This document shows positions 3,567-17,007 of a stretch of 33,813 nt of DNA, one piece after another (positions within the stretch are counted from its first letter, which is position 1; each line of letters starts with the position of its first letter). The stretch lies in assembly GCA_903933385.1 (NCBI GenBank), contig CAIZJW010000243.1, forward strand, positions 1-33,813. Direction: 5' to 3'. A model generated the notes under the pieces. It searched no databases. It saw nothing but the letters and a program-made list of their open reading frames with translations, and was not told the DNA's origin. The translations under genes and the position numbers were made by a program. Origin of the DNA: an uncultured Silvanigrella sp. (GTDB lineage Bacteria; Bdellovibrionota_B; Oligoflexia; Silvanigrellales; Silvanigrellaceae).

Positions 3567-4004
3567 ATGTGTTCGATGATGGCTTTTTCAAAGAAGGTTG
3601 CTGCATGTACTTCACTTTTATTTGCATCGCAGGCAATTGCTGAAACAAATGGAAAATGGATTCCTGGAGAGTGCGGAACGGATGGATTTTGCGCTTTGAT
3701 TCGAGTTGAGCAGGAGTTAACGCAGCAAACTCCACTGCGACCATCAGGTGTGGTTGTGGGCACAATTGACGATGATGGATTTACGGTCAGTCGAGTTGCT
3801 TCTCAGGGAGCAAAACAGGTTTGCCGAAAAGAAGTTCGTGTTCCAAAAGTTGTTTATGAAGCTGTGACGCAGATGTTTAATTCTGTTTTGACGCGCGGCG
3901 ACAACGGGGCCCTGCCCGCAAGCCTCACTCCTGCCGAGCAAACGATGTTGCTCTATTACAACACCATCATGCAACAGACGATGAATTTTCAGTGTGGACG
4001 TTGA
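3567..4004 (+). CDS. Secreted four-cysteine protein, first of two tandem paralogs, 145 aa
   Basis: A strong AGGAGG site at 3553-3558, eight bases before the ATG, fixes the start. The first 25 residues form a signal peptide ending in AIA. The mature chain of about 120 residues has exactly four cysteines, in GECGTDGFC, QVCRKEV and NFQC. It shares with the next gene the pattern C-x-x-D-G-x-C, a C-x-K-x-V-x-VP-x-x-x-Y block, and a C-terminal LTPAEQTMLLYY...MQQT...C block. I do not recognise the family. Two disulfides in the periplasm or outside the cell are likely. The gene stands first in a two-gene rightward unit with only 27 bases to the paralog. Confidence 0.8.
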   Translation: MCSMMAFSKKVAACTSLLFASQAIAETNGKWIPGECGTDGFCALIRVEQELTQQTPLRPSGVVVGTIDDDGFTVSRVASQGAKQVCRKEVRVPKVVYEAVTQMFNSVLTRGDNGALPASLTPAEQTMLLYYNTIMQQTMNFQCGR

Positions 4005-4031
4005 GATATTCTATTTTGGAGGTTGAAGAAG

Positions 4032-4463
4032 ATGATTAAATTTATTCTCCCGATTTTGATTTCTGCTGGTCTCAGTTCTTTGGCAAGCGCGAACGTGACT
4101 CAACCCGAAAAGGGTGGGAGTAACTGTAATCCCGATGGTCAGTGCGTGATTTTTGAAGTCAATATTCAGTTAGACAGCGCTGTTGATAGGCCAGTTGTCG
4201 TGAACTCACCCGTTATTTATCTCGACGACTCAAATTCCTATCAGACAACTGTCATGCGCACGGGTGATGTTTGCACAAAGCAGGTGAAAGTACCCTGGGC
4301 TGTTTATCAATCCATTGCTTCCATTATGTCGACGCTCGATGGCAGCAACGGTGAGCCGCCTCCAGCATTTACACCCGCTCAACAAACGATGCTTCTGTTC
4401 TACACAACACTCATGCAGCAGACACTCTCGTTCAACTGTTCACCCAGCGATTATAACCGCTAA
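4032..4463 (+). CDS. Secreted four-cysteine protein, second tandem paralog, 143 aa
   Basis: The ATG at 4032 is chosen over the in-frame TTG at 4023 because GGAGG at 4018-4022 lies nine bases before the ATG but touches the TTG. A signal peptide of about 20 residues ends in ASA. The mature part aligns by eye with the preceding protein along its full length, with the same four cysteines (SNCNPDGQC, DVCTKQV, SFNC) and the shared FTPAQQTMLLFY...MQQT block. The N-terminal and mid regions have diverged strongly, so the duplication is old or the copies have different targets. It converges on the chorismate mutase gene with 16 bases between the stops and no obvious hairpin. Function is unknown. Confidence 0.8.
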   Translation: MIKFILPILISAGLSSLASANVTQPEKGGSNCNPDGQCVIFEVNIQLDSAVDRPVVVNSPVIYLDDSNSYQTTVMRTGDVCTKQVKVPWAVYQSIASIMSTLDGSNGEPPPAFTPAQQTMLLFYTTLMQQTLSFNCSPSDYNR

Positions 4464-4479: not shown

Positions 4480-4764
4480 TTACTTTTGCACGTTAAGACA
4501 AATGGTCATTAGGTGTGAATAAAGTGCTCGGAGGTCTTCTTCGGTAAGCCGCGGCTCACTCTGTGAGTTTAACGCCGCTATTCTCTCCAGAACCTGTGTT
4601 TCTCGGGCTGTGTCTCTCACGACACGGCCCTGTTCTTTTTTGAGATCTCCCATCTCAAGAGCAATCATAATTCGCTTTTTCATGAGTTCTAGAATCCGAG
4701 AATCTATGTCATCGATCTCAGAGCGGAGTTGTTCGAGAGTCTGTTTGCATTTCACGGAGCTCAC
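4480..4764 (-). CDS. Monofunctional AroQ-type chorismate mutase, 94 aa
   Basis: Chorismate mutase rearranges chorismate to prephenate, the precursor of Phe and Tyr. This small all-helical protein matches the AroQ fold and its active-site set at the right spacing: Arg14, Arg31, Lys42, Asp51, Arg54 and Glu55 correspond to E. coli residues 11, 28, 39, 48, 51 and 52. Near the C-terminus a Gln93 is preceded by Cys89/Thr87 where Ser is usual. No dehydrogenase or dehydratase domain is fused to it. The start is GTG at 4764, whose last two bases lie in the TGA of the U32 gene (GTGA overlap), so the two are translationally coupled. No other aromatic-pathway gene is nearby. This suggests its prephenate serves the U32 protein, though a general biosynthetic role is possible. 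Confidence 0.88.
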   Translation of the reverse strand: MSSVKCKQTLEQLRSEIDDIDSRILELMKKRIMIALEMGDLKKEQGRVVRDTARETQVLERIAALNSQSEPRLTEEDLRALYSHLMTICLNVQK

Positions 4765-7418
4765 AAGAGTGTCCTGTCGAAGTTTGCAGTGTGAGTTTCT
4801 GTGATAGCCTTGTTCTCAAAGGTGTCTTTTAAAATGCTGACAAAGCGCTCTTTCTCATAGGGGCGTGTGAGGAAATCGAGTCTGAAATTTCTGATGCCAA
4901 GGTTCTCAAGCTCGGTTCGCCTGTGTGTGATGGAGTACGCGCGCTTGTCGTAAACAACCGATTTGCAAGATTCATGTGCGACAAAGAAACGTTCTCCGGC
5001 GTCATTTTCAATTTCGAGTGTTCTATAGCCGCACACGGTATTGCCTGGGCATCCGTTGTGCAAAGCTGTGAGGCTGCAACTTTCAGCTATAAAAAGTGGA
5101 GTGTCTTTAAACAAAATAGCTTCTGGCAACGCGTTTTCAGGCCAGGCTGCCAACAGAGCACTGACATTTTTGAAATCGTCTTCCACTGAAAGCGCAACTC
5201 TCTCAATTCCTCTGTCGCGCCAATGAGCGACTGCTGCGGTATTGAGAGAATAGAGAGTGAAATCGGACGAAATTGAGGTGATTTTTTCCCGTAAGCCCCA
5301 ACGCTCGAGCATTGAAAGTACGCCCAAATTTCCAATTTCTAAAGATGTAACACCACTTTCAACAAACAGCTGAACCCATCTCTTCATCACTGGTTCATCC
5401 CAGGCACGCAGCACCGTTGGGATTGCCAGGCGAAGAGTGAGCCCTGTTTTGTTTCTAAATTCCTTCAGCTTTTCCAATGTCGAAGCAAACGAACTGTCGG
5501 GCAGAAATGCTCGTTTTGGTTCGAAAAGAACCTCTTTGATGCTCAGCTGACTCTGGGAGCTCGCTTCTGCCTGAGCTTCAATGATCCAATTGAGGTATTC
5601 TAAACGGTCTACTTTTATAGTTAGACTTGATGAGCTCGAAAGCGTTGTTTCGCGGGCCTGCTGGCGAGGCGCAACTGTTTCGAGGGCGACATTAAGGCGT
5701 TCACTTAAAAACGTATCAAAGGCACCTGGCAAACTTGCTTCGAGGTTGCGCTTGAGTTCTTTCAATTGTCCTCTGGGCACAAACCAATGGGTGTCGCCGG
5801 CAATGTTTATTTTGGACGAGGCAAAGCCAATGTTCCCAAGAATTCCGAGACTCTCTCGCAGGTCGTTCACGAGCGTTGAAGTGTCGTGCTTAGGGCGCAT
5901 CGCATTGAGAGTTTGCGTGACTTTAAGTAGGGGTATGCCGAACTTCAATACAGAAACATTGAGAGAAAGAATTTCGTTTTGAGCATCAACCGAGATTTCC
6001 AAGTCAATCTGCTTCAGTGGTCGCAGTCGTGCATCGGTTGAAGGTCGAGAGAGCTTTTCCACGTCTCGGCGTAGGGCATCGGATCGAGTTCGGACGACGT
6101 TGTCGCCAACGGCGGGCAGGGGAAGATTATCTGGAATTTCGATTGCCACAAGGCTTCCTGCAGGAGCACTTGTCACCATTTTTCCAGAAAGGAACATTTG
6201 CCTGAGTGAGAAGTGGCAAACGTTGTTTTCATATTTCTGACTCACGCCCTCGGCTGTTGAACTGCTCGTCGCGCCATGTTGCGGCGTGGAGTGGTAAATG
6301 GCCTCTGCGGGATCAATTCGCAGTCCGTCGTAGCGCTCGAGTTCACAGCGAGTTTCAACTTCAACAAGTCGCCCGCGCACATTTACCACGGAGCCCACCG
6401 GTTGTCCCTTGTGGGTGGGGTTATTCAGGTCAATGACATTCTCGTGGTAACGGCCTTTTAGGAAGAATGAAGAACTCTCGCGCTGAAACGTTAGGCTCAA
6501 ATTTTCACGTAACTTGTCCGGTGAGTTCGTGTTGCTCTCAGTGATGGCATGAGCCAACGCGGGCGCGTCGCGGCGCAGCGTTGCGCGGCCATAGATATCG
6601 TCGAGACGCTGCCGATACGTTTGCACAACCGTTGAAACATATTGTGCATCTTTCTTTCGTCCCTCAATTTTGAGTGTGTCGATTCCCGCATCAACGAGCA
6701 AATGCAGCGATTCAACCGTATTGAGGTCCTTCATGCTAAAGAGGAAACCATGGCCAGGTTCATTGACAATTTTGTAGGGTTTTCTGCAGGTGTAAGCGCA
6801 CTCGCCGCGATTTCCGCTGCGCGCGTCTTCTGCCCCTGAGAAAAAACAAAGTCCGCTGTAGGAGTAGCAGAGACTTCCGTGACAGAAAGCTTCCAGTTCT
6901 ACCTGCTCACGCGGCACTGCTGCTCTGATTTTTTTAATTTCCAGCGCTGTGAGCTCACGTGCCAACACAACCCTCTTGAATCCGGACCGCATGGCCTCAA
7001 GAACACCATCGAGGTTGTGAACTGCCATTTGTGTTGAGGCATGGAGTCTCAGATTGGGAAAGAATTGTTTGCACAGGCGTGCTAAGCCGAGGTCTTGTAC
7101 AATGATCGCGTGAACACCGATGTCTTCGAGTGCAGCGAGGGTCTCTACCAGAGATTTAAGTTCGCTATTCTTGATAAGAATATTCATGGTCACGAGCACA
7201 TTCATGCCATGTGAATGGGCCAAAGGTACGAGTTCGCGCAGGTCGTCGAGGGTGAAGTTCTCCGCGCGAGCGCGTGCGTTGAAGTTCTTGAGACCGAGAA
7301 AAACTGCGTCAGCGCCCGAATTGAGAGCTGCGAAGAATTGCTCACGGCCTCCGACAGGAGCCAGAATTTCGGGAACAAATGAAGGTGAATTGGATTCTGA
7401 ATGAACTTCTCTCTGCAT
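4761..7418 (-). CDS. Long U32-family protein, probable RNA hydroxylase of the RlhA/TrhP type, 885 aa
   Basis: The N-terminal ~300 residues are a typical U32 domain: EILAPVGG and GADAVFLG at the start, ASTQMAVHN, and the signature FCHGSLCYSYSGLC with cysteines 179, 184, 191, 207 and 211. In characterised relatives such cysteines bind an iron-sulfur cluster. A middle region resembles the domain that follows U32 in RlhA. From about residue 600 a second, diverged U32-like barrel seems present, with its own cysteines at 781, 790, 796 and 818. E. coli RlhA is about 650 residues, so this is a long form. Although named peptidases, characterised U32 proteins hydroxylate tRNA U34 (TrhP), 23S rRNA C2501 (RlhA) or the ubiquinone ring (UbiU/V); which applies here cannot be seen. 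The ATG at 7418 has GAGG eight bases upstream. The chorismate mutase gene overlaps its stop. Confidence 0.88.
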   Translation of the reverse strand: MQREVHSESNSPSFVPEILAPVGGREQFFAALNSGADAVFLGLKNFNARARAENFTLDDLRELVPLAHSHGMNVLVTMNILIKNSELKSLVETLAALEDIGVHAIIVQDLGLARLCKQFFPNLRLHASTQMAVHNLDGVLEAMRSGFKRVVLARELTALEIKKIRAAVPREQVELEAFCHGSLCYSYSGLCFFSGAEDARSGNRGECAYTCRKPYKIVNEPGHGFLFSMKDLNTVESLHLLVDAGIDTLKIEGRKKDAQYVSTVVQTYRQRLDDIYGRATLRRDAPALAHAITESNTNSPDKLRENLSLTFQRESSSFFLKGRYHENVIDLNNPTHKGQPVGSVVNVRGRLVEVETRCELERYDGLRIDPAEAIYHSTPQHGATSSSTAEGVSQKYENNVCHFSLRQMFLSGKMVTSAPAGSLVAIEIPDNLPLPAVGDNVVRTRSDALRRDVEKLSRPSTDARLRPLKQIDLEISVDAQNEILSLNVSVLKFGIPLLKVTQTLNAMRPKHDTSTLVNDLRESLGILGNIGFASSKINIAGDTHWFVPRGQLKELKRNLEASLPGAFDTFLSERLNVALETVAPRQQARETTLSSSSSLTIKVDRLEYLNWIIEAQAEASSQSQLSIKEVLFEPKRAFLPDSSFASTLEKLKEFRNKTGLTLRLAIPTVLRAWDEPVMKRWVQLFVESGVTSLEIGNLGVLSMLERWGLREKITSISSDFTLYSLNTAAVAHWRDRGIERVALSVEDDFKNVSALLAAWPENALPEAILFKDTPLFIAESCSLTALHNGCPGNTVCGYRTLEIENDAGERFFVAHESCKSVVYDKRAYSITHRRTELENLGIRNFRLDFLTRPYEKERFVSILKDTFENKAITETHTANFDRTLL

Positions 7419-10474: not shown

Positions 10475-13400
10475 TTATTCAGCACTGACAAAAAGAAGTG
10501 ACGTGTTTTTGTCGACAACAACAAGACACCCTGCAAAGAGTGGATCGAGGTCGGCTAAATTTGCCGACGTGTAGTAAAGAATGCCTAGGAGAGGTTTGTC
10601 GGATCCTGCAAAAAGTGTTCCGTCAGTCAGTGCACCAACAAGAAGTTGAGGCTGAGAAGCCAGAATGTGTTTCACCCAACGAAGATACTGCCTCATCTGT
10701 TCAAGGTGCTTTGGGTCGGGTTGACCTGTTTTGAAGTCAATCACAAGATGCAGATTTGGTTCATTTGCAATTTTTGTTTGTAGTGTCTTTTCCAATGTAA
10801 ATTGAGCTGTTTGATTTTCCCCGACACAATAAGCATCCCAAAGCTTTTTAGGCCATTTTGATGCTGGCACAACACAATAAAGATCAAGAATTCGGCGCTG
10901 TGAGCGTTGCAGACCGCTTGCTATGTCTGCCAACGAGGGAGTGACATCAAATGCTCCCCACATCTCTAGTTCATGCTCGCGCACAAGCGCGCTCGAAAGA
11001 AGTTTGGAAAGAAAGTTTTTTTCGGTTGGCAACGATGCTCCGCCGTGCTCCATGAGAGCGTGAAACCTCAACCCTTGTTCACTTGCTGAAAGCTTCTCTT
11101 GCAACTCAGAGGGGCCTGCCTCAGGCACAGATTCCTTTGTCTGCACTGAGCTGATTGATTTTTCCACGCCGTGAACAAGCGGAGTGATTTCGGGAATGGC
11201 TGGCTTTTGCCAGGGGGAGAGGAGCGCCTTTTGGTGGCGCGCTTCTGCCCAGATATCTTGCCAATTATTTTCGAGTTCGGGGGGCTTCTGATTGTTCTCA
11301 GAAATTGGCTTCACGGGCAACGATTGACTCATTTCATGCAACCAATCAGGGCCATAGTCGCGCGCCGCGAGAATTCCCTTCCAATCTTGGTTCCGGAGAG
11401 CAGCATCAACTGTGTGTCCGAGCCAAGGTGTTTTGGGTTTGCTTCCTCTTTTGTTTGCTTTTCGTAAATCAAAAAACGTATCAGCAAAGCATCCAAAAAC
11501 GGTCGATTCGAGCCCATTGAGTTTCAATTGAACGGGGTCGAATTCATCGCCTTCCTTCAGAGCAGCGAGTTTGTCGCGGAGATTTTTTTGCACTCGCCCT
11601 GTCACAGCAGGTGAAACCAAAACGAGCATTTCCCGGGCTCTTGTATAAGCAGTGTAAAAAACCCTTTGCCGCTCATAGTCTTGCTCCAGACGATCTTGGA
11701 GATCTGCACTCCAACGAACAATTTGTTCGCCTGAGTTATTCTCAATCTCAATGGAGACGATATCTTCGGGTGGGTTTGGATTGAGAATCCAAGGAAGCAG
11801 TGAAGCAGATTCGGTGTCTTGTGCGAGCCACTTTATTTGTGTCGCATTTTCTCCGCTTTTCATAACAAAATTTTCGGGAGAACGATCGCGTTTGCTGCTC
11901 GGCCAAAAAACGACAATGGGCCACTCGAGACCTTTTGCCCCATGAATCGTACAGACAGTGATAGCATCTTCCGAGGGGTCTGATTCTGCTTCATTCAAGC
12001 GAAGTTGCTTGAGTTTATTTTGAAGGAGTTCATCGGGCCAAACTCCCTGCGAAGTTTCAAGAGACCTGCGTGTCGACCACACTTCCAAGACTTGATGAAG
12101 TGCAAGTGCGACGTTTTCCATTTCAATGTTCATGGCTTTCTGTTGCGCCGCGGCCGGATTTTGAAATCCCCAGCGAAAGACCTGCCACGCCGAGAAAAAA
12201 TGCTGAGTCGCGAGAGCCCGACAGCGAACAAGGTGATCTCTGATTGGTTGCCATGTCTCAGGAGTCGAAGTCGCAATTTTGCCTTCGAGATTCTGACGAG
12301 CTTCATTGTTGGTAACAAAGTTTCCGCCGAGTCGGCCATGACTTGCAGCGGCAATGAGCTCAGAAGCCGCCACATGACTGAATTCAAACCAACCACTCCA
12401 AATGAGTTGGGCAAATTCTTTTGCATTCAACGGTCCGCATAACCATTTTCCAAGCAGCAAACCAATTTCTTCGCAACGGAGACGATATTCTGAATCGTGA
12501 TCGGCTGGTCGACTTGTTTTTGCAACCGAAGGAAGCCCATAGCTCTGCAATTGCAGGTGCGTTTTTACAGCCCATTCGTTTGTTTCACACAAAATCACCA
12601 TGTCTTTCCAGCGGAGCGAACTTTTATCTCTTATGAGCTGCAATTCTTTTGCGATCGCCCAAGTTGTGAAGGCATGCTGATTTGGGGAATTCTCAGGCAA
12701 GGGCAATTCACAGCGTTCTTTGGAAAGAGAAGCACCGAGCAATAGCACCCGCGGCTGCTCCTCATCGGACTTGCTGAGCTCTGAGGCACGGCCAGCATCG
12801 AGTGCTTTTGATGCCACGAATGTTTGCTGCGCTGTGAGGGAGAATGTTGTTCCAAGAAATTGCTCTGGAATTTTGTTGTTTTTATAAGCGAAGCTCATGT
12901 CAGAAAGATAGTTAATCCATGGGAGAAGATCGGGATGTGAACGAAAATTCCTCGTCAGCTCAATGAGTTTCCAAGTTGGATTGTTTTTGAGACGCTGAAA
13001 AACACCGACATGTGCACTTCTGAAGCCATATATACTTTGCTTTGGATCGCCCACAACAACCATTCTTCCACTCCTGGGAGAGAGAAGTGCTGTGAGTATT
13101 TCGTGTTGAAGTTGGTTGGTGTCCTGGTATTCGTCGACAATCAACTCTTTGCATTGCACTGGCAAATGCGGCTCATTTTTTTCATGGAAAAAAGAGCCTT
13201 CATGCAAATGCTCTCTGGCGACAAGGAGGTGGTAGAGAAAAAGCATTCTGTCGCTGTGGGTAACCCGGCCGTGCATGAGGCGCTTATGGAATTGTGTTCT
13301 CGCAAGATTTTGCAAGCCATTGAGAACTGAAAGTGATGCTGGATGAATTTTCTCCAAAGCAAAATGCAGCGGTGGCGCATCGTCTCGGAGTAGGTTTTCA

Positions 13401-14065
13401 TGAAGCATGGCAGCGGTAATTCTCTCGAGGCCTCTATAACGCTCCGATGTTGTCCCACCCGTGTGGAAGGATTTGCTCTCAAATGCTCCAGCAAGGATGA
13501 AGTCAAGCAATGACACTTCTTCGGATGGATTGCTTGCGTTCTTCTCAATGAAATTGAGTACCAGCTCCGAAAGTTCGGGTCTTAGCTCTTCCTCCGAAAC
13601 CAGCGTGAGAGTGGGCGGAAAACGCTGGCTTGCGAGACCCCACTCTGCAAGCACAGCTTCCGATAATTGGCTTCGCTTTTCTTCCCACCACAGCGGAAAG
13701 AGATTGTTTGTAAGCTGCATGAAGAGGCTATCGATGGTGGAGATGTGAAGTCTCCCGAGCACTTTTTCAAGACTTTCATCGCTCAAGTTCGATGACTTAA
13801 ATCGTTTTTCAACTCTTCGGCGAAGCTCTTCGTCAGCAGCTCGCGAGAAAGTCACTAAAATGAGTTCCTGAGGCTCAAGCCGGTAGGCGGTAGGTGCCGC
13901 GTTGAGTAGCCAATGAACTCTTTCTGTGAGGAGGGTTGTTTTTCCAGCGCCTGCTCCCGCTTCGATAACGAGATTTCTAGGGGCTTTCGTTGGATCCTCG
14001 CTTGAAGGCGTGGATGAAGGAAAAAAGACCGCCTCAGATTGCTCAGGACTCAGTTTTGTTTCCAT
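10475..14065 (-). CDS. addA: AddA-type helicase-nuclease subunit (UvrD/RecB family), 1196 aa
   Basis: AddAB processes double-strand DNA ends for recombinational repair. This subunit is a superfamily 1A helicase: Q-motif LSPEQSEAV, Walker A AGAGAGKTT (residues 36-44), motif Ia LVTFSRAA, DEYQDT (motif II), GDPKQSIYGFR (motif III), and CTIHGAKGLEW and VFYTAYTRA motifs towards the C-terminus of the motor. The C-terminal domain ends in a PD-(D/E)XK-like VIDFKTG (Asp1110, Lys1112). The usual earlier Asp, 13 residues before, is Thr1097, so this nuclease site may be altered. The length matches AddA. The ATG at 14065 shares one base with the addB stop (TAATG), which fits co-translation of two subunits of one complex. 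Confidence 0.93.
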   Translation of the reverse strand: METKLSPEQSEAVFFPSSTPSSEDPTKAPRNLVIEAGAGAGKTTLLTERVHWLLNAAPTAYRLEPQELILVTFSRAADEELRRRVEKRFKSSNLSDESLEKVLGRLHISTIDSLFMQLTNNLFPLWWEEKRSQLSEAVLAEWGLASQRFPPTLTLVSEEELRPELSELVLNFIEKNASNPSEEVSLLDFILAGAFESKSFHTGGTTSERYRGLERITAAMLHENLLRDDAPPLHFALEKIHPASLSVLNGLQNLARTQFHKRLMHGRVTHSDRMLFLYHLLVAREHLHEGSFFHEKNEPHLPVQCKELIVDEYQDTNQLQHEILTALLSPRSGRMVVVGDPKQSIYGFRSAHVGVFQRLKNNPTWKLIELTRNFRSHPDLLPWINYLSDMSFAYKNNKIPEQFLGTTFSLTAQQTFVASKALDAGRASELSKSDEEQPRVLLLGASLSKERCELPLPENSPNQHAFTTWAIAKELQLIRDKSSLRWKDMVILCETNEWAVKTHLQLQSYGLPSVAKTSRPADHDSEYRLRCEEIGLLLGKWLCGPLNAKEFAQLIWSGWFEFSHVAASELIAAASHGRLGGNFVTNNEARQNLEGKIATSTPETWQPIRDHLVRCRALATQHFFSAWQVFRWGFQNPAAAQQKAMNIEMENVALALHQVLEVWSTRRSLETSQGVWPDELLQNKLKQLRLNEAESDPSEDAITVCTIHGAKGLEWPIVVFWPSSKRDRSPENFVMKSGENATQIKWLAQDTESASLLPWILNPNPPEDIVSIEIENNSGEQIVRWSADLQDRLEQDYERQRVFYTAYTRAREMLVLVSPAVTGRVQKNLRDKLAALKEGDEFDPVQLKLNGLESTVFGCFADTFFDLRKANKRGSKPKTPWLGHTVDAALRNQDWKGILAARDYGPDWLHEMSQSLPVKPISENNQKPPELENNWQDIWAEARHQKALLSPWQKPAIPEITPLVHGVEKSISSVQTKESVPEAGPSELQEKLSASEQGLRFHALMEHGGASLPTEKNFLSKLLSSALVREHELEMWGAFDVTPSLADIASGLQRSQRRILDLYCVVPASKWPKKLWDAYCVGENQTAQFTLEKTLQTKIANEPNLHLVIDFKTGQPDPKHLEQMRQYLRWVKHILASQPQLLVGALTDGTLFAGSDKPLLGILYYTSANLADLDPLFAGCLVVVDKNTSLLFVSAE

Positions 14066-17007
14066 TACGCCTGCGCCCCTCCATCAACTCTTTGAGCTGT
14101 TGGACAAAAAGTCCTTAATGAGCATGTTTTACATGTTTCTTTCAGCAGTGGACGGGCCGAGAATATTCCTGCAGTGAGATTCCTCGCGTATTCAATATAT
14201 TCTGATTCAATGAGTTGAAATGAGTCGCTGTCTTTTTTTAGCGGGGTATCGAACTCATAGGTCAGCTCTGGACTCCGACTCAAATCGAGTGTCTTGAGGC
14301 GCAAAAGCGTAAAAGCGCGCACCCCACGTGTCGCGTTGTCATCATTTTCTGCTTGATGGCGAGCCCATGCGAGACTGTATATTGCTCCTTGGACGCTCAA
14401 TTTGTTTGTTGTGTTGAGTTGCGAGGGGCGCAGCACAAGAACAGGATCGTTTTTAGGAACTTTTGATGTTTTATAATCAATGATTTTATCGCCTGTCGGA
14501 TGCGTATCGATCCTATCAATACGCCCCGCGAGTGTAAGAGATTCAGTGAGTTCATAAGAGACGGGTTGTTCGAGAAATGCTGCCCGCGCGCGCCCTGTGA
14601 TTGTCGTTTGTGATGAATTTATGTTTTCTTCTCTTTCGAGAAGTAGGAGCTCACTTTGTAGGAGCTTTTTCATCGAGCGTCGCACGCCTTCGCGTGTGAG
14701 CTGCGTTTGTAGAATGTTATCTGTAGCTTTTTTTTCGCTCACTGCTCCAGGGGCTTTTGAAAGTTTCTCGCCAAAGAGTGTTGCACGTATGTCAGAAATC
14801 ATGGGCAGCGCATGATTCATTTGCGTCGGATTCAATTCGCATTTTTCTATTGTTTCAAGAAGTTTGGCTGCCCAAGTGTCTGGGTGGGTTGAAACAAAAG
14901 CATCAGATGAAATAAAATCTTCGTCTATCCTAGTTATCAATTGCTGCCAGAGTGCATCATTACAATTTCTGGAGTCATCAAAAAGTGAAAGATGTCTCAC
15001 AGAGCGTAAAAATGTCTCCGCCAAGGTATGGGCCCTGTGTCCAAGTTCTAAGCGATTTGGCTGCAACGCTGGATGTGAGTCGGTGTCAGCTTTGTGCAAA
15101 TTCAGCCAGTAGAACTTAAGAGGGCATTCGACGTAATCTTCAAATGCCGTGACGGCAACAATCGTTTTTGAAGTTGCGGGTTGTTTTGTCAGCAGGCGAG
15201 TCCATTGTCTATCTTCTATTGAACTTCCATTGCCTAACCAGCTCTCAAAGGATGTTGTTTTTTCTCCTGCGTTGATGCGAGTGTTCCAGAGCAAAGGTGG
15301 CAAGCACCACGGTTTCGTGTACTCGGGGAAGTTTTCAACGTCTTTTATGTTTTTTACGAGAAATCTGATTTTTTCCGGACGAGCGAGGAAGGATTGCCAA
15401 TAGCCTCGGTATGCTTGCTCCGATGCAATCGGATCAAGTGCGATTTGTTTGCTCCGAAGATGGTGAAAAACCGCATTCAAAATGCGTAAATGAAAACTAG
15501 GAGTCGTTGTTGAGTGTGGCACTCCAACAACACAATACTCTTTCACATGCGAGAGTCCCGGCAAAAGTGAAAGTGCTGGAGGCAATTGTGAAACGCTCCC
15601 GAGATCTCCAACATTGAATGTTTCACTGTCGAAAAAACGATGTAAAAGAAGTTCGAAGGTGATGCCGTGGCGGCGGAGTGAGGGGCTCAACTCATATTGG
15701 TTTAAAGCTTCTTGGATGACAGAATTGAACTTCTCAAGGCGCTGCCAGTCTTTCTTAAAATCGTCATGCAATGATGCAACCCGTTCTGCGGCAGGGTTGA
15801 TCCATTCGGTCGAATTTACGTTTATTTTTTCTGCGCTTTCGGACCCGCTCTGCTGAGACGGCGTGTTTGCTAAATGCAATGCGAAGTCTGCGGGTGTCAG
15901 CGCATGGATTCCTGAACCATCGGAACGTGAAATGTTCCACAATCGGGAGTTTATGTCGCCTAATAGGAATTGTGTTTGTCCCTGCGAATTTTTTTCGAGG
16001 GTTTCAAGATGGTATTCAAGCGCAGCCTGTGAACGCAGAACGTGAATTTCGGCCGAAGGCGTCTCTGGTACGAGCGTGTTCGTGGGTATGATTGTCCTTG
16101 CCCACCATGTGCTATTTGATGTCTTTTGCACCTCTGTAGATGCAAACATTTCTCGTGATTCAAACAGCACATCGCGCAGTGCATCAATCCAGTGGGCTTG
16201 GAAGTTACCTGGTCGATACGTGTGCGTGCTTTTCGATTTTTCTTCATCGCGGCAATATTCAGGTGCAGCAACCCAGAGCATAGGCTGGGAAAGAAATTTT
16301 TGTGGAAGAAGAAATTTTTCGAACCCCTCCGATTTTTCGAGAGAGCAGCTTAGATTTTTCTTGAAGATAGGAACCCAATAATCGCCCACGAACGACTGTA
16401 ATCTGCAAAAATGCGAGTTCATTTTCTGCAGCAACTGGTAGGCAACACAAATGGTTCTCAGTGATATGTCGGGGATGTCGGTAAGGTTCTTCAAGGACGT
16501 GCTCATTTTCTGCACTTCGAGAAGCACGGATAGGAAGCTTTCGTCGCGAGGCAACTCGGTATCTGCGAGTGTGAGAATCTGTTTTGCCAGCGGTGCTACG
16601 TCGCTTCCCGCATAACCGAGCTGTAGGAGCAGCAGGCGCGTCATGCGCTCTTGCTCAACCACATCGAGAAATGGGCTGCGCAACATTCGAAATATTTCGC
16701 TCCCAAGCTGTTCCTGAGAGTTGTGCGAGAGCGTTAAGGCAAAGTTGCGAACGAGAGTGTCGGGGGTGTACAAACTGACACCCGTCCATGCTTGAAAATC
16801 GGCTTCAGGATTTCGCTCTGAATGGAGCTTTTTAAGAAGGCTAAAGATCTGGGTTCGAATGAAAAGGAGGTCTTCTTTTCTTTCGCAAACAATATTCCAG
16901 CGCTGTGGCTTTCGCTCCTCGAGGCCATTCATAAGTTCCCGCGCAAGGCTTTCGTACACTGAATGCTCAGCGAGCAAAAAGCCTTGCGCGACGAACGTCT
17001 GAATCAT
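14065..17007 (-). CDS. addB: AddB-type nuclease subunit, 980 aa
   Basis: This is the partner of AddA in end resection. The N-terminal two thirds is an inactivated helicase-like region with no Walker A motif, as in many AddB proteins outside Firmicutes. The C-terminal PD-(D/E)XK nuclease is complete: GRIDRID with Asp831, then IIDYKT with Asp844 and Lys846 at the expected 13-residue spacing. It is framed by four cysteines that bind an iron-sulfur cluster in this family (Cys628 in VECPLKF, then Cys959, Cys962 and Cys968 in CKTCSLRTFC). The gene starts five bases after the fadD stop and ends one base into addA, so all three probably share a transcript. Its ribosome site is weak and lies inside fadD. 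Confidence 0.92.
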   Translation of the reverse strand: MIQTFVAQGFLLAEHSVYESLARELMNGLEERKPQRWNIVCERKEDLLFIRTQIFSLLKKLHSERNPEADFQAWTGVSLYTPDTLVRNFALTLSHNSQEQLGSEIFRMLRSPFLDVVEQERMTRLLLLQLGYAGSDVAPLAKQILTLADTELPRDESFLSVLLEVQKMSTSLKNLTDIPDISLRTICVAYQLLQKMNSHFCRLQSFVGDYWVPIFKKNLSCSLEKSEGFEKFLLPQKFLSQPMLWVAAPEYCRDEEKSKSTHTYRPGNFQAHWIDALRDVLFESREMFASTEVQKTSNSTWWARTIIPTNTLVPETPSAEIHVLRSQAALEYHLETLEKNSQGQTQFLLGDINSRLWNISRSDGSGIHALTPADFALHLANTPSQQSGSESAEKINVNSTEWINPAAERVASLHDDFKKDWQRLEKFNSVIQEALNQYELSPSLRRHGITFELLLHRFFDSETFNVGDLGSVSQLPPALSLLPGLSHVKEYCVVGVPHSTTTPSFHLRILNAVFHHLRSKQIALDPIASEQAYRGYWQSFLARPEKIRFLVKNIKDVENFPEYTKPWCLPPLLWNTRINAGEKTTSFESWLGNGSSIEDRQWTRLLTKQPATSKTIVAVTAFEDYVECPLKFYWLNLHKADTDSHPALQPNRLELGHRAHTLAETFLRSVRHLSLFDDSRNCNDALWQQLITRIDEDFISSDAFVSTHPDTWAAKLLETIEKCELNPTQMNHALPMISDIRATLFGEKLSKAPGAVSEKKATDNILQTQLTREGVRRSMKKLLQSELLLLEREENINSSQTTITGRARAAFLEQPVSYELTESLTLAGRIDRIDTHPTGDKIIDYKTSKVPKNDPVLVLRPSQLNTTNKLSVQGAIYSLAWARHQAENDDNATRGVRAFTLLRLKTLDLSRSPELTYEFDTPLKKDSDSFQLIESEYIEYARNLTAGIFSARPLLKETCKTCSLRTFCPTAQRVDGGAQA

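Follow-up and report, generated by a model that had tools for sequence, protein, structure and literature searches.

The whole stretch of DNA that was analysed, 33,813 nucleotides in length, is referred to here as the window. On its minus strand a U32-DUF3656 gene is followed by a gene for an AroQ-type chorismate mutase (CM). The features of both genes are listed in Table 1.

Table 1. Features of the U32 and CM genes. Positions are those of the window.
Feature	Position	Strand	Remarks
U32 hydroxylase-like protein	4761..7418	-	885 aa, ends in TGA; N-terminal U32 barrel, DUF3656 in the middle, C-terminal degenerate U32-like barrel
AroQ-type (type II) CM, predicted	4480..4764	-	94 aa, GTG start
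4-nt overlap GTGA	4761..4764	-	shared by the U32 stop (TGA) and the CM start (GTG)
AGGA, Shine-Dalgarno-like	4772..4775	-	7 nt before the CM start, within the last U32 codons (AGG ACA CTC TTG TGA)
Codons of the CX6CX15CX3C cysteine motif	6786..6869	-	Cys184, 191, 207, 211; found by pattern
Codons of the second cysteine set	4965..5078	-	Cys781, 790, 796, 818; C-terminal domain

Gene overlap and translation signals

The first-pass annotation of this DNA had described the stop codon of the U32 gene and the start codon of the CM gene as overlapping in GTGA. This overlap is confirmed and comprises 4 nt (4764..4761). Such overlaps are common in the operons of bacteria. Between the preceding stop codon and the GTG, the CM frame contains no ATG, GTG or TTG. 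Thus, the GTG is the first possible start of the CM gene. A later start at Met28, the next in-frame methionine, would remove the catalytic Arg14.

The spacing of 7 nt between the AGGA and the GTG is the same in all three coupled species. The AGGA is built with the rare arginine codon AGG, which accounts for 3–8% of the Arg codons in these genes. An AGG is also present in the uncoupled relative G003, whose U32 gene ends in TAG, and for this reason the AGGA makes a weak case for a ribosome site selected upstream of the CM gene. A promoter scan of the minus strand between the U32 and CM genes found none, with scan counts at the level of shuffled sequences. Translation of the two genes is probably coupled.

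The larger ORFs of the window yielded no further aromatic-pathway gene, in agreement with the first-pass annotation. Two adjacent paralogous small proteins without a Pfam match are encoded at 3567-4004 and 4023-4463; they adjoin the CM gene in the congeneric genome G001 too, but not directly in G002. Elsewhere in the window (10475-17007), the ORFs of a UvrD-type helicase and a PD-(D/E)XK nuclease protein touch by one base and resemble an AddAB-type pair.

Sequence features of the two proteins

The CM matches the Pfam family CM_2 (PF01817) over positions 1–80 of 80 with 67.9 bits (E=9e-19, cut-off 27). Its residues Arg14, Arg31, Lys42, Asp51, Arg54 and Glu55, previously noted as an intact catalytic set, all align with catalytic residues of the E. 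coli CM (Arg11, Arg28, Lys39, Asp48, Arg51 and Glu52, respectively). Gln93, which corresponds to E. coli Gln88 in the alignment, was absent from that list and is added here. At the position of Ser84 of the E. coli CM the window protein carries a cysteine. In an alignment of 12 divergent CMs, one of them E. coli PheA, the columns of R14, D21, R31, K42, E55 and Q93 are invariant, and five of these six are catalytic residues. Judged by its sequence, the protein is most likely an AroQ (type II) chorismate mutase, and conversion of chorismate to prephenate is its predicted activity.

The U32 protein matches Peptidase_U32 (PF01136, E=2e-68) and DUF3656 (PF12392, E=1e-6). Collinearity with E. coli RlhA extends through DUF3656 (489 columns, E=3e-53), and the two proteins are 36% identical over 358 residues. 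The CX6CX15CX3C motif spans Cys184 to Cys211 and is preceded by Glu176. All four cysteines of the motif are invariant in 26 long U32 proteins. In other U32 oxidases this motif has been tied to a [4Fe-4S] cluster (review, PMC11574389). From its sequence the window protein is a putative [4Fe-4S] prephenate-dependent hydroxylase.

The C-terminal third of the U32 protein matches a degenerate U32 barrel. A profile of mixed U32 proteins detects this domain (hhalign, 95.5%, E=1.6e-8), and UbiV alone gives no match to it. Cys781, 790, 796 and 818 of the C-terminal domain are conserved in 96, 96, 85 and 96%, respectively, of the 26 long U32 proteins (loci L111-L171). They may form a second metal site in the same chain. 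The best match of a fold search is the U32 structure 5d88. Little rests on this search, because the whole-chain scores are low and the structure model is of moderate quality (pLDDT 73.5), with low values in the Cys regions.

The long U32 type is found in Oligoflexia, Schekmanbacteria, Planctomycetota, Lentisphaerota and others. In the tree it stands apart from E. coli RlhA, which joins G023c; both of the latter lie on long branches, and with the long branches in the tree the placement is unsure. The window protein appears to belong to a long RlhA-like subfamily whose members carry a degenerate U32 barrel in addition to the N-terminal one. The label "TrhP-type" of the first-pass annotation is wrong: the U32-DUF3656 layout is that of RlhA, no Peptidase_U32_C domain (PF16325) was found by Pfam in the window protein, and the protein falls outside the TrhP clade. 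In addition, its score with the NCBIfam TrhP model is 205 bits, with a cut-off of 534. Identity to E. coli TrhP is 33.7% in the core. In relatives, TrhP-like proteins occur as short chains of their own.

The layout of the protein also bears on its likely substrate. The U32 family includes UbiU and UbiV, which act in ubiquinone synthesis (PMC11574389), and the long subfamily, with two barrels in one chain, is separated in the tree from both E. coli RlhA and TrhP. A functional module of CM and U32 protein might therefore hydroxylate not RNA but, for example, a quinone or another small molecule, as in the case of UbiU-UbiV. The combination of U32 and DUF3656 and the collinearity over 489 columns are, however, common to RlhA, and UbiU and UbiV have no DUF3656. 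A functional module with a substrate other than RNA is unlikely.

Conservation of the pair and prephenate enzymes in the genomes

G001 (VGHE01000003.1) and G002 (RFOM01000092.1), the two other genomes of the genus, carry the same U32-CM pair with the identical GTGA overlap. The U32 proteins of these genomes are 67 and 63% identical to the window protein, the CMs 45 and 29%, respectively. In G001 the genes on both sides of the pair are conserved too. In G002 a different gene lies downstream of the CM gene, yet the pair is intact. Thus, with the same pair and the same GTGA in both genus-mates, the pair is more than chance.

Adjacency was surveyed at 80 long-U32 loci; flanking sequence extended to 8 kb at most, and contig ends shorten many of the flanks. 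The loci were found with an alignment-based scan; a single U32 protein as query had given no match. A CM was detected near the long U32 gene only in the two genus-mates and not at the 78 other loci. Accordingly, the arrangement appears to be restricted to the genus as far as tested (long U32 loci). The first-pass annotation had allowed for an adjacency unique to this genome; it extends to three species, but to one genus only.

The window genome (3.3 Mb, 326 contigs, 98.3% complete) contains one AroQ CM, a single hit in the genome, and one U32 gene. An AroH-type CM as a second CM was not found in it. Chorismate synthase and AroB are encoded. Neither prephenate dehydratase (PDT) nor prephenate dehydrogenase (PDH) nor CmoA was detected in the window genome or in G001 and G002 (94 and 93% complete), and the PDT and PDH searches were positive in 14/14 control genomes. 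With both enzymes missing in three species and found in every control, the Tyr branch at any rate seems to be closed. This small group of Oligoflexia has apparently dispensed with the final steps of Phe and Tyr synthesis. CmoA was considered as an alternative prephenate user and rejected: it was not found in the genus, and a weak match in G000 reaches 23 bits, compared to a cut-off of 193 bits. Among the families searched (PDT, PDH and CmoA; PheC-type dehydratases lie outside the search) the U32 protein is the sole prephenate user left.

Dehydratases of the PheC type (cyclohexadienyl dehydratases) belong to the transporter-like family PF00497. With this family outside the searches and chorismate synthase present, the CM could still serve Phe synthesis via an unrecognised dehydratase, for example one of the PheC type, or via prephenate that loses water slowly without an enzyme. 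Its position after the U32 gene would then be a matter of operon convenience. This is quite improbable in view of the missing PDT and PDH in three species of the genus, the Tyr branch that looks closed and a window in which no aromatic gene was found. A sole CM serving Phe and Tyr synthesis, as the first-pass annotation had envisaged as a counter-case, is thus only half borne out: the CM is the only one, yet neither a PDT nor a PDH that it could supply was detected (a PheC-type dehydratase being outside the search). The proposal of a dedicated prephenate source encoded with its user is strengthened in one respect, because no use of the CM for Phe or Tyr was found: the genome encodes a single CM together with chorismate synthase and AroB, and PDT, PDH and CmoA were not detected. 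The functional link is still inferred.

Co-occurrence was analysed in 38 relatives without PDT and PDH. Non-secreted CMs were scored, and Fisher tests were applied without correction for relatedness. Class-wide, 12/18 genomes with U32 contain a non-secreted CM compared to 5/20 without U32 (p=0.021, relatedness uncorrected). The corresponding numbers for U32 or CmoA are 15/23 and 2/15 (p=0.0025, likewise uncorrected). For genomes of at least 90% completeness only, the p-values are 0.12 (U32) and 0.04 (U32 or CmoA). In the family of the window genome, a non-secreted CM is present in 4/4 genomes with U32 and in 0/7 without U32 (p=0.003, relatedness uncorrected). The label "secreted" for the CMs of G007, G008 and G012 was assigned by reading the N-termini. 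For this reason, and because relatedness is uncorrected, the counts are supporting figures only. In another genus of the same family, CMs with signal-peptide-like N-termini (L072:6007-6405, L074:5523-5942, L076:4874-5278, L073:5410-5946) are possible exported chorismate mutases.

Six relatives in the class (G023, G026, G032, G035, G042 and G043) possess U32 genes, and no AroQ or AroH CM, PDT or PDH was detected in them. A class-specific CM profile gave nothing convincing in the U32-bearing genomes without CM. Thus, either U32 can do without a CM in some genomes or the CM escaped detection there. These six genomes, together with the orphan CMs that have other partners, are what chiefly speaks against a dedicated prephenate source.

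Orphan CMs with other partners occur in the class as well. In three genomes the orphan CM gene lies directly behind a gene for a radical-SAM protein similar to lysine 2,3-aminomutase (KamA) with a 4-nt overlap (L079:3881-5478, L101:3567-5137, L102:4749-6319). The overlap with a KamA-like gene is 22 nt at a further locus (L106:5243-6657), and at another the two genes do not overlap (L088:3679-5429). At four loci of one genus of the class (L077:5794-7504, L081:5590-7262, L083:5279-6987, L085:4050-5793) the orphan CM gene adjoins a homogentisate 1,2-dioxygenase (hmgA) gene, which is confirmed by Pfam in L077 and assigned by sequence resemblance in L081, L083 and L085. With KamA-like and hmgA genes as partners, pairing of a CM with something unrelated does occur.

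Accordingly, the CM of the window could be an orphan with another use of prephenate or chorismate, and its link to the U32 gene could be incidental and kept by descent in one genus. The KamA-like and hmgA partners, the genus-restricted adjacency and the relatives with U32 and without CM are consistent with this explanation. It is nevertheless unlikely. The exact overlap is kept although the CM identity drops to 29% and a neighbouring gene changes. Within the family, the presence of an orphan non-secreted CM follows that of U32 (4/4 versus 0/7). Furthermore, no other prephenate user is present among those searched.

Proposed function and comparison with known systems

The best explanation, and a fairly probable one, is a two-gene unit in which a monofunctional CM supplies prephenate to its operon partner, a prephenate-dependent RlhA-like long U32 Fe-S hydroxylase with RNA as the most likely target. 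The AroQ CM would turn chorismate into prephenate, and the U32 protein would use prephenate as oxygen donor or cosubstrate and hydroxylate its target, most likely RNA. With the Phe and Tyr branches lost, the CM that fed them would have been left without use. A continued need of the hydroxylase for prephenate may explain why the CM has been kept and is coupled to the U32 gene. A more far-reaching version is put forward tentatively, with somewhat less than even chances: a self-contained O2-independent hydroxylation cassette in which the CM is freed from amino-acid synthesis and serves only to provide the oxygen donor for a U32 hydroxylase with two barrels in one chain. Direct hand-over of prephenate from the CM to the U32 protein is conceivable in such a cassette and is speculation.

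In E. coli, hydroxylation by TrhP and by RlhA requires prephenate, and for TrhP a PheA with CM activity only, or added prephenate, restores ho5U (PMC6599085). This need was shown in mutants of an organism that also makes amino acids from prephenate; the authors left room for an unknown metabolite derived from prephenate (PMC6599085). In the anaerobic synthesis of ubiquinone, the source of the hydroxyl is likewise reported to be prephenate, and a review of 2024 regards the chemistry of the U32 prephenate reaction as undemonstrated (PMC11574389). The E. coli mutant test has a counterpart in nature in a lineage that has no detectable PDT or PDH and keeps a CM beside its sole U32 gene. The pairing points to prephenate itself, rather than a product of the Phe or Tyr branch, as what the U32 enzyme uses, and would be natural genetic evidence for this if the proposal is true. 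No prior report of a CM-U32 pairing was found in the open-access literature searched. The pair offers a minimal two-protein system for reconstituting hydroxylation.

Of the known systems, E. coli RlhA, which hydroxylates C2501 of 23S rRNA and is fed by the CMs of PheA and TyrA, shares the U32 barrel with CX6CX15CX3C, DUF3656 and the collinearity described above. RlhA is prephenate-dependent (PMC6599085), and the same dependence is proposed for the window protein. In contrast to PheA and TyrA, the CM of the window has no dehydratase or dehydrogenase fused to it, and its own gene is coupled to that of the U32 protein. The U32 protein differs from RlhA in its C-terminal part, where a further, degenerate U32 barrel carries a Cys set of its own, and in its separate branch in the tree.

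E. coli TrhP, which hydroxylates U34 of tRNA, resembles the window protein in the U32 motif and the core, and its prephenate dependence is reported (PMC6599085). The window protein differs in having DUF3656 and no detected Peptidase_U32_C, and in its position outside the TrhP clade. Monofunctional AroQ CMs (for example 1ybz and Rv0948c) belong to the same fold family as the window CM and have the same catalytic residues, whereas the genome of the window has no detected Phe/Tyr branch (PDT, PDH). In UbiU-UbiV and TrhP1-TrhP2 two U32 proteins work together. By analogy, the two U32-like barrels of the window protein may represent such a partnership within a single polypeptide, with DUF3656 placed between them.
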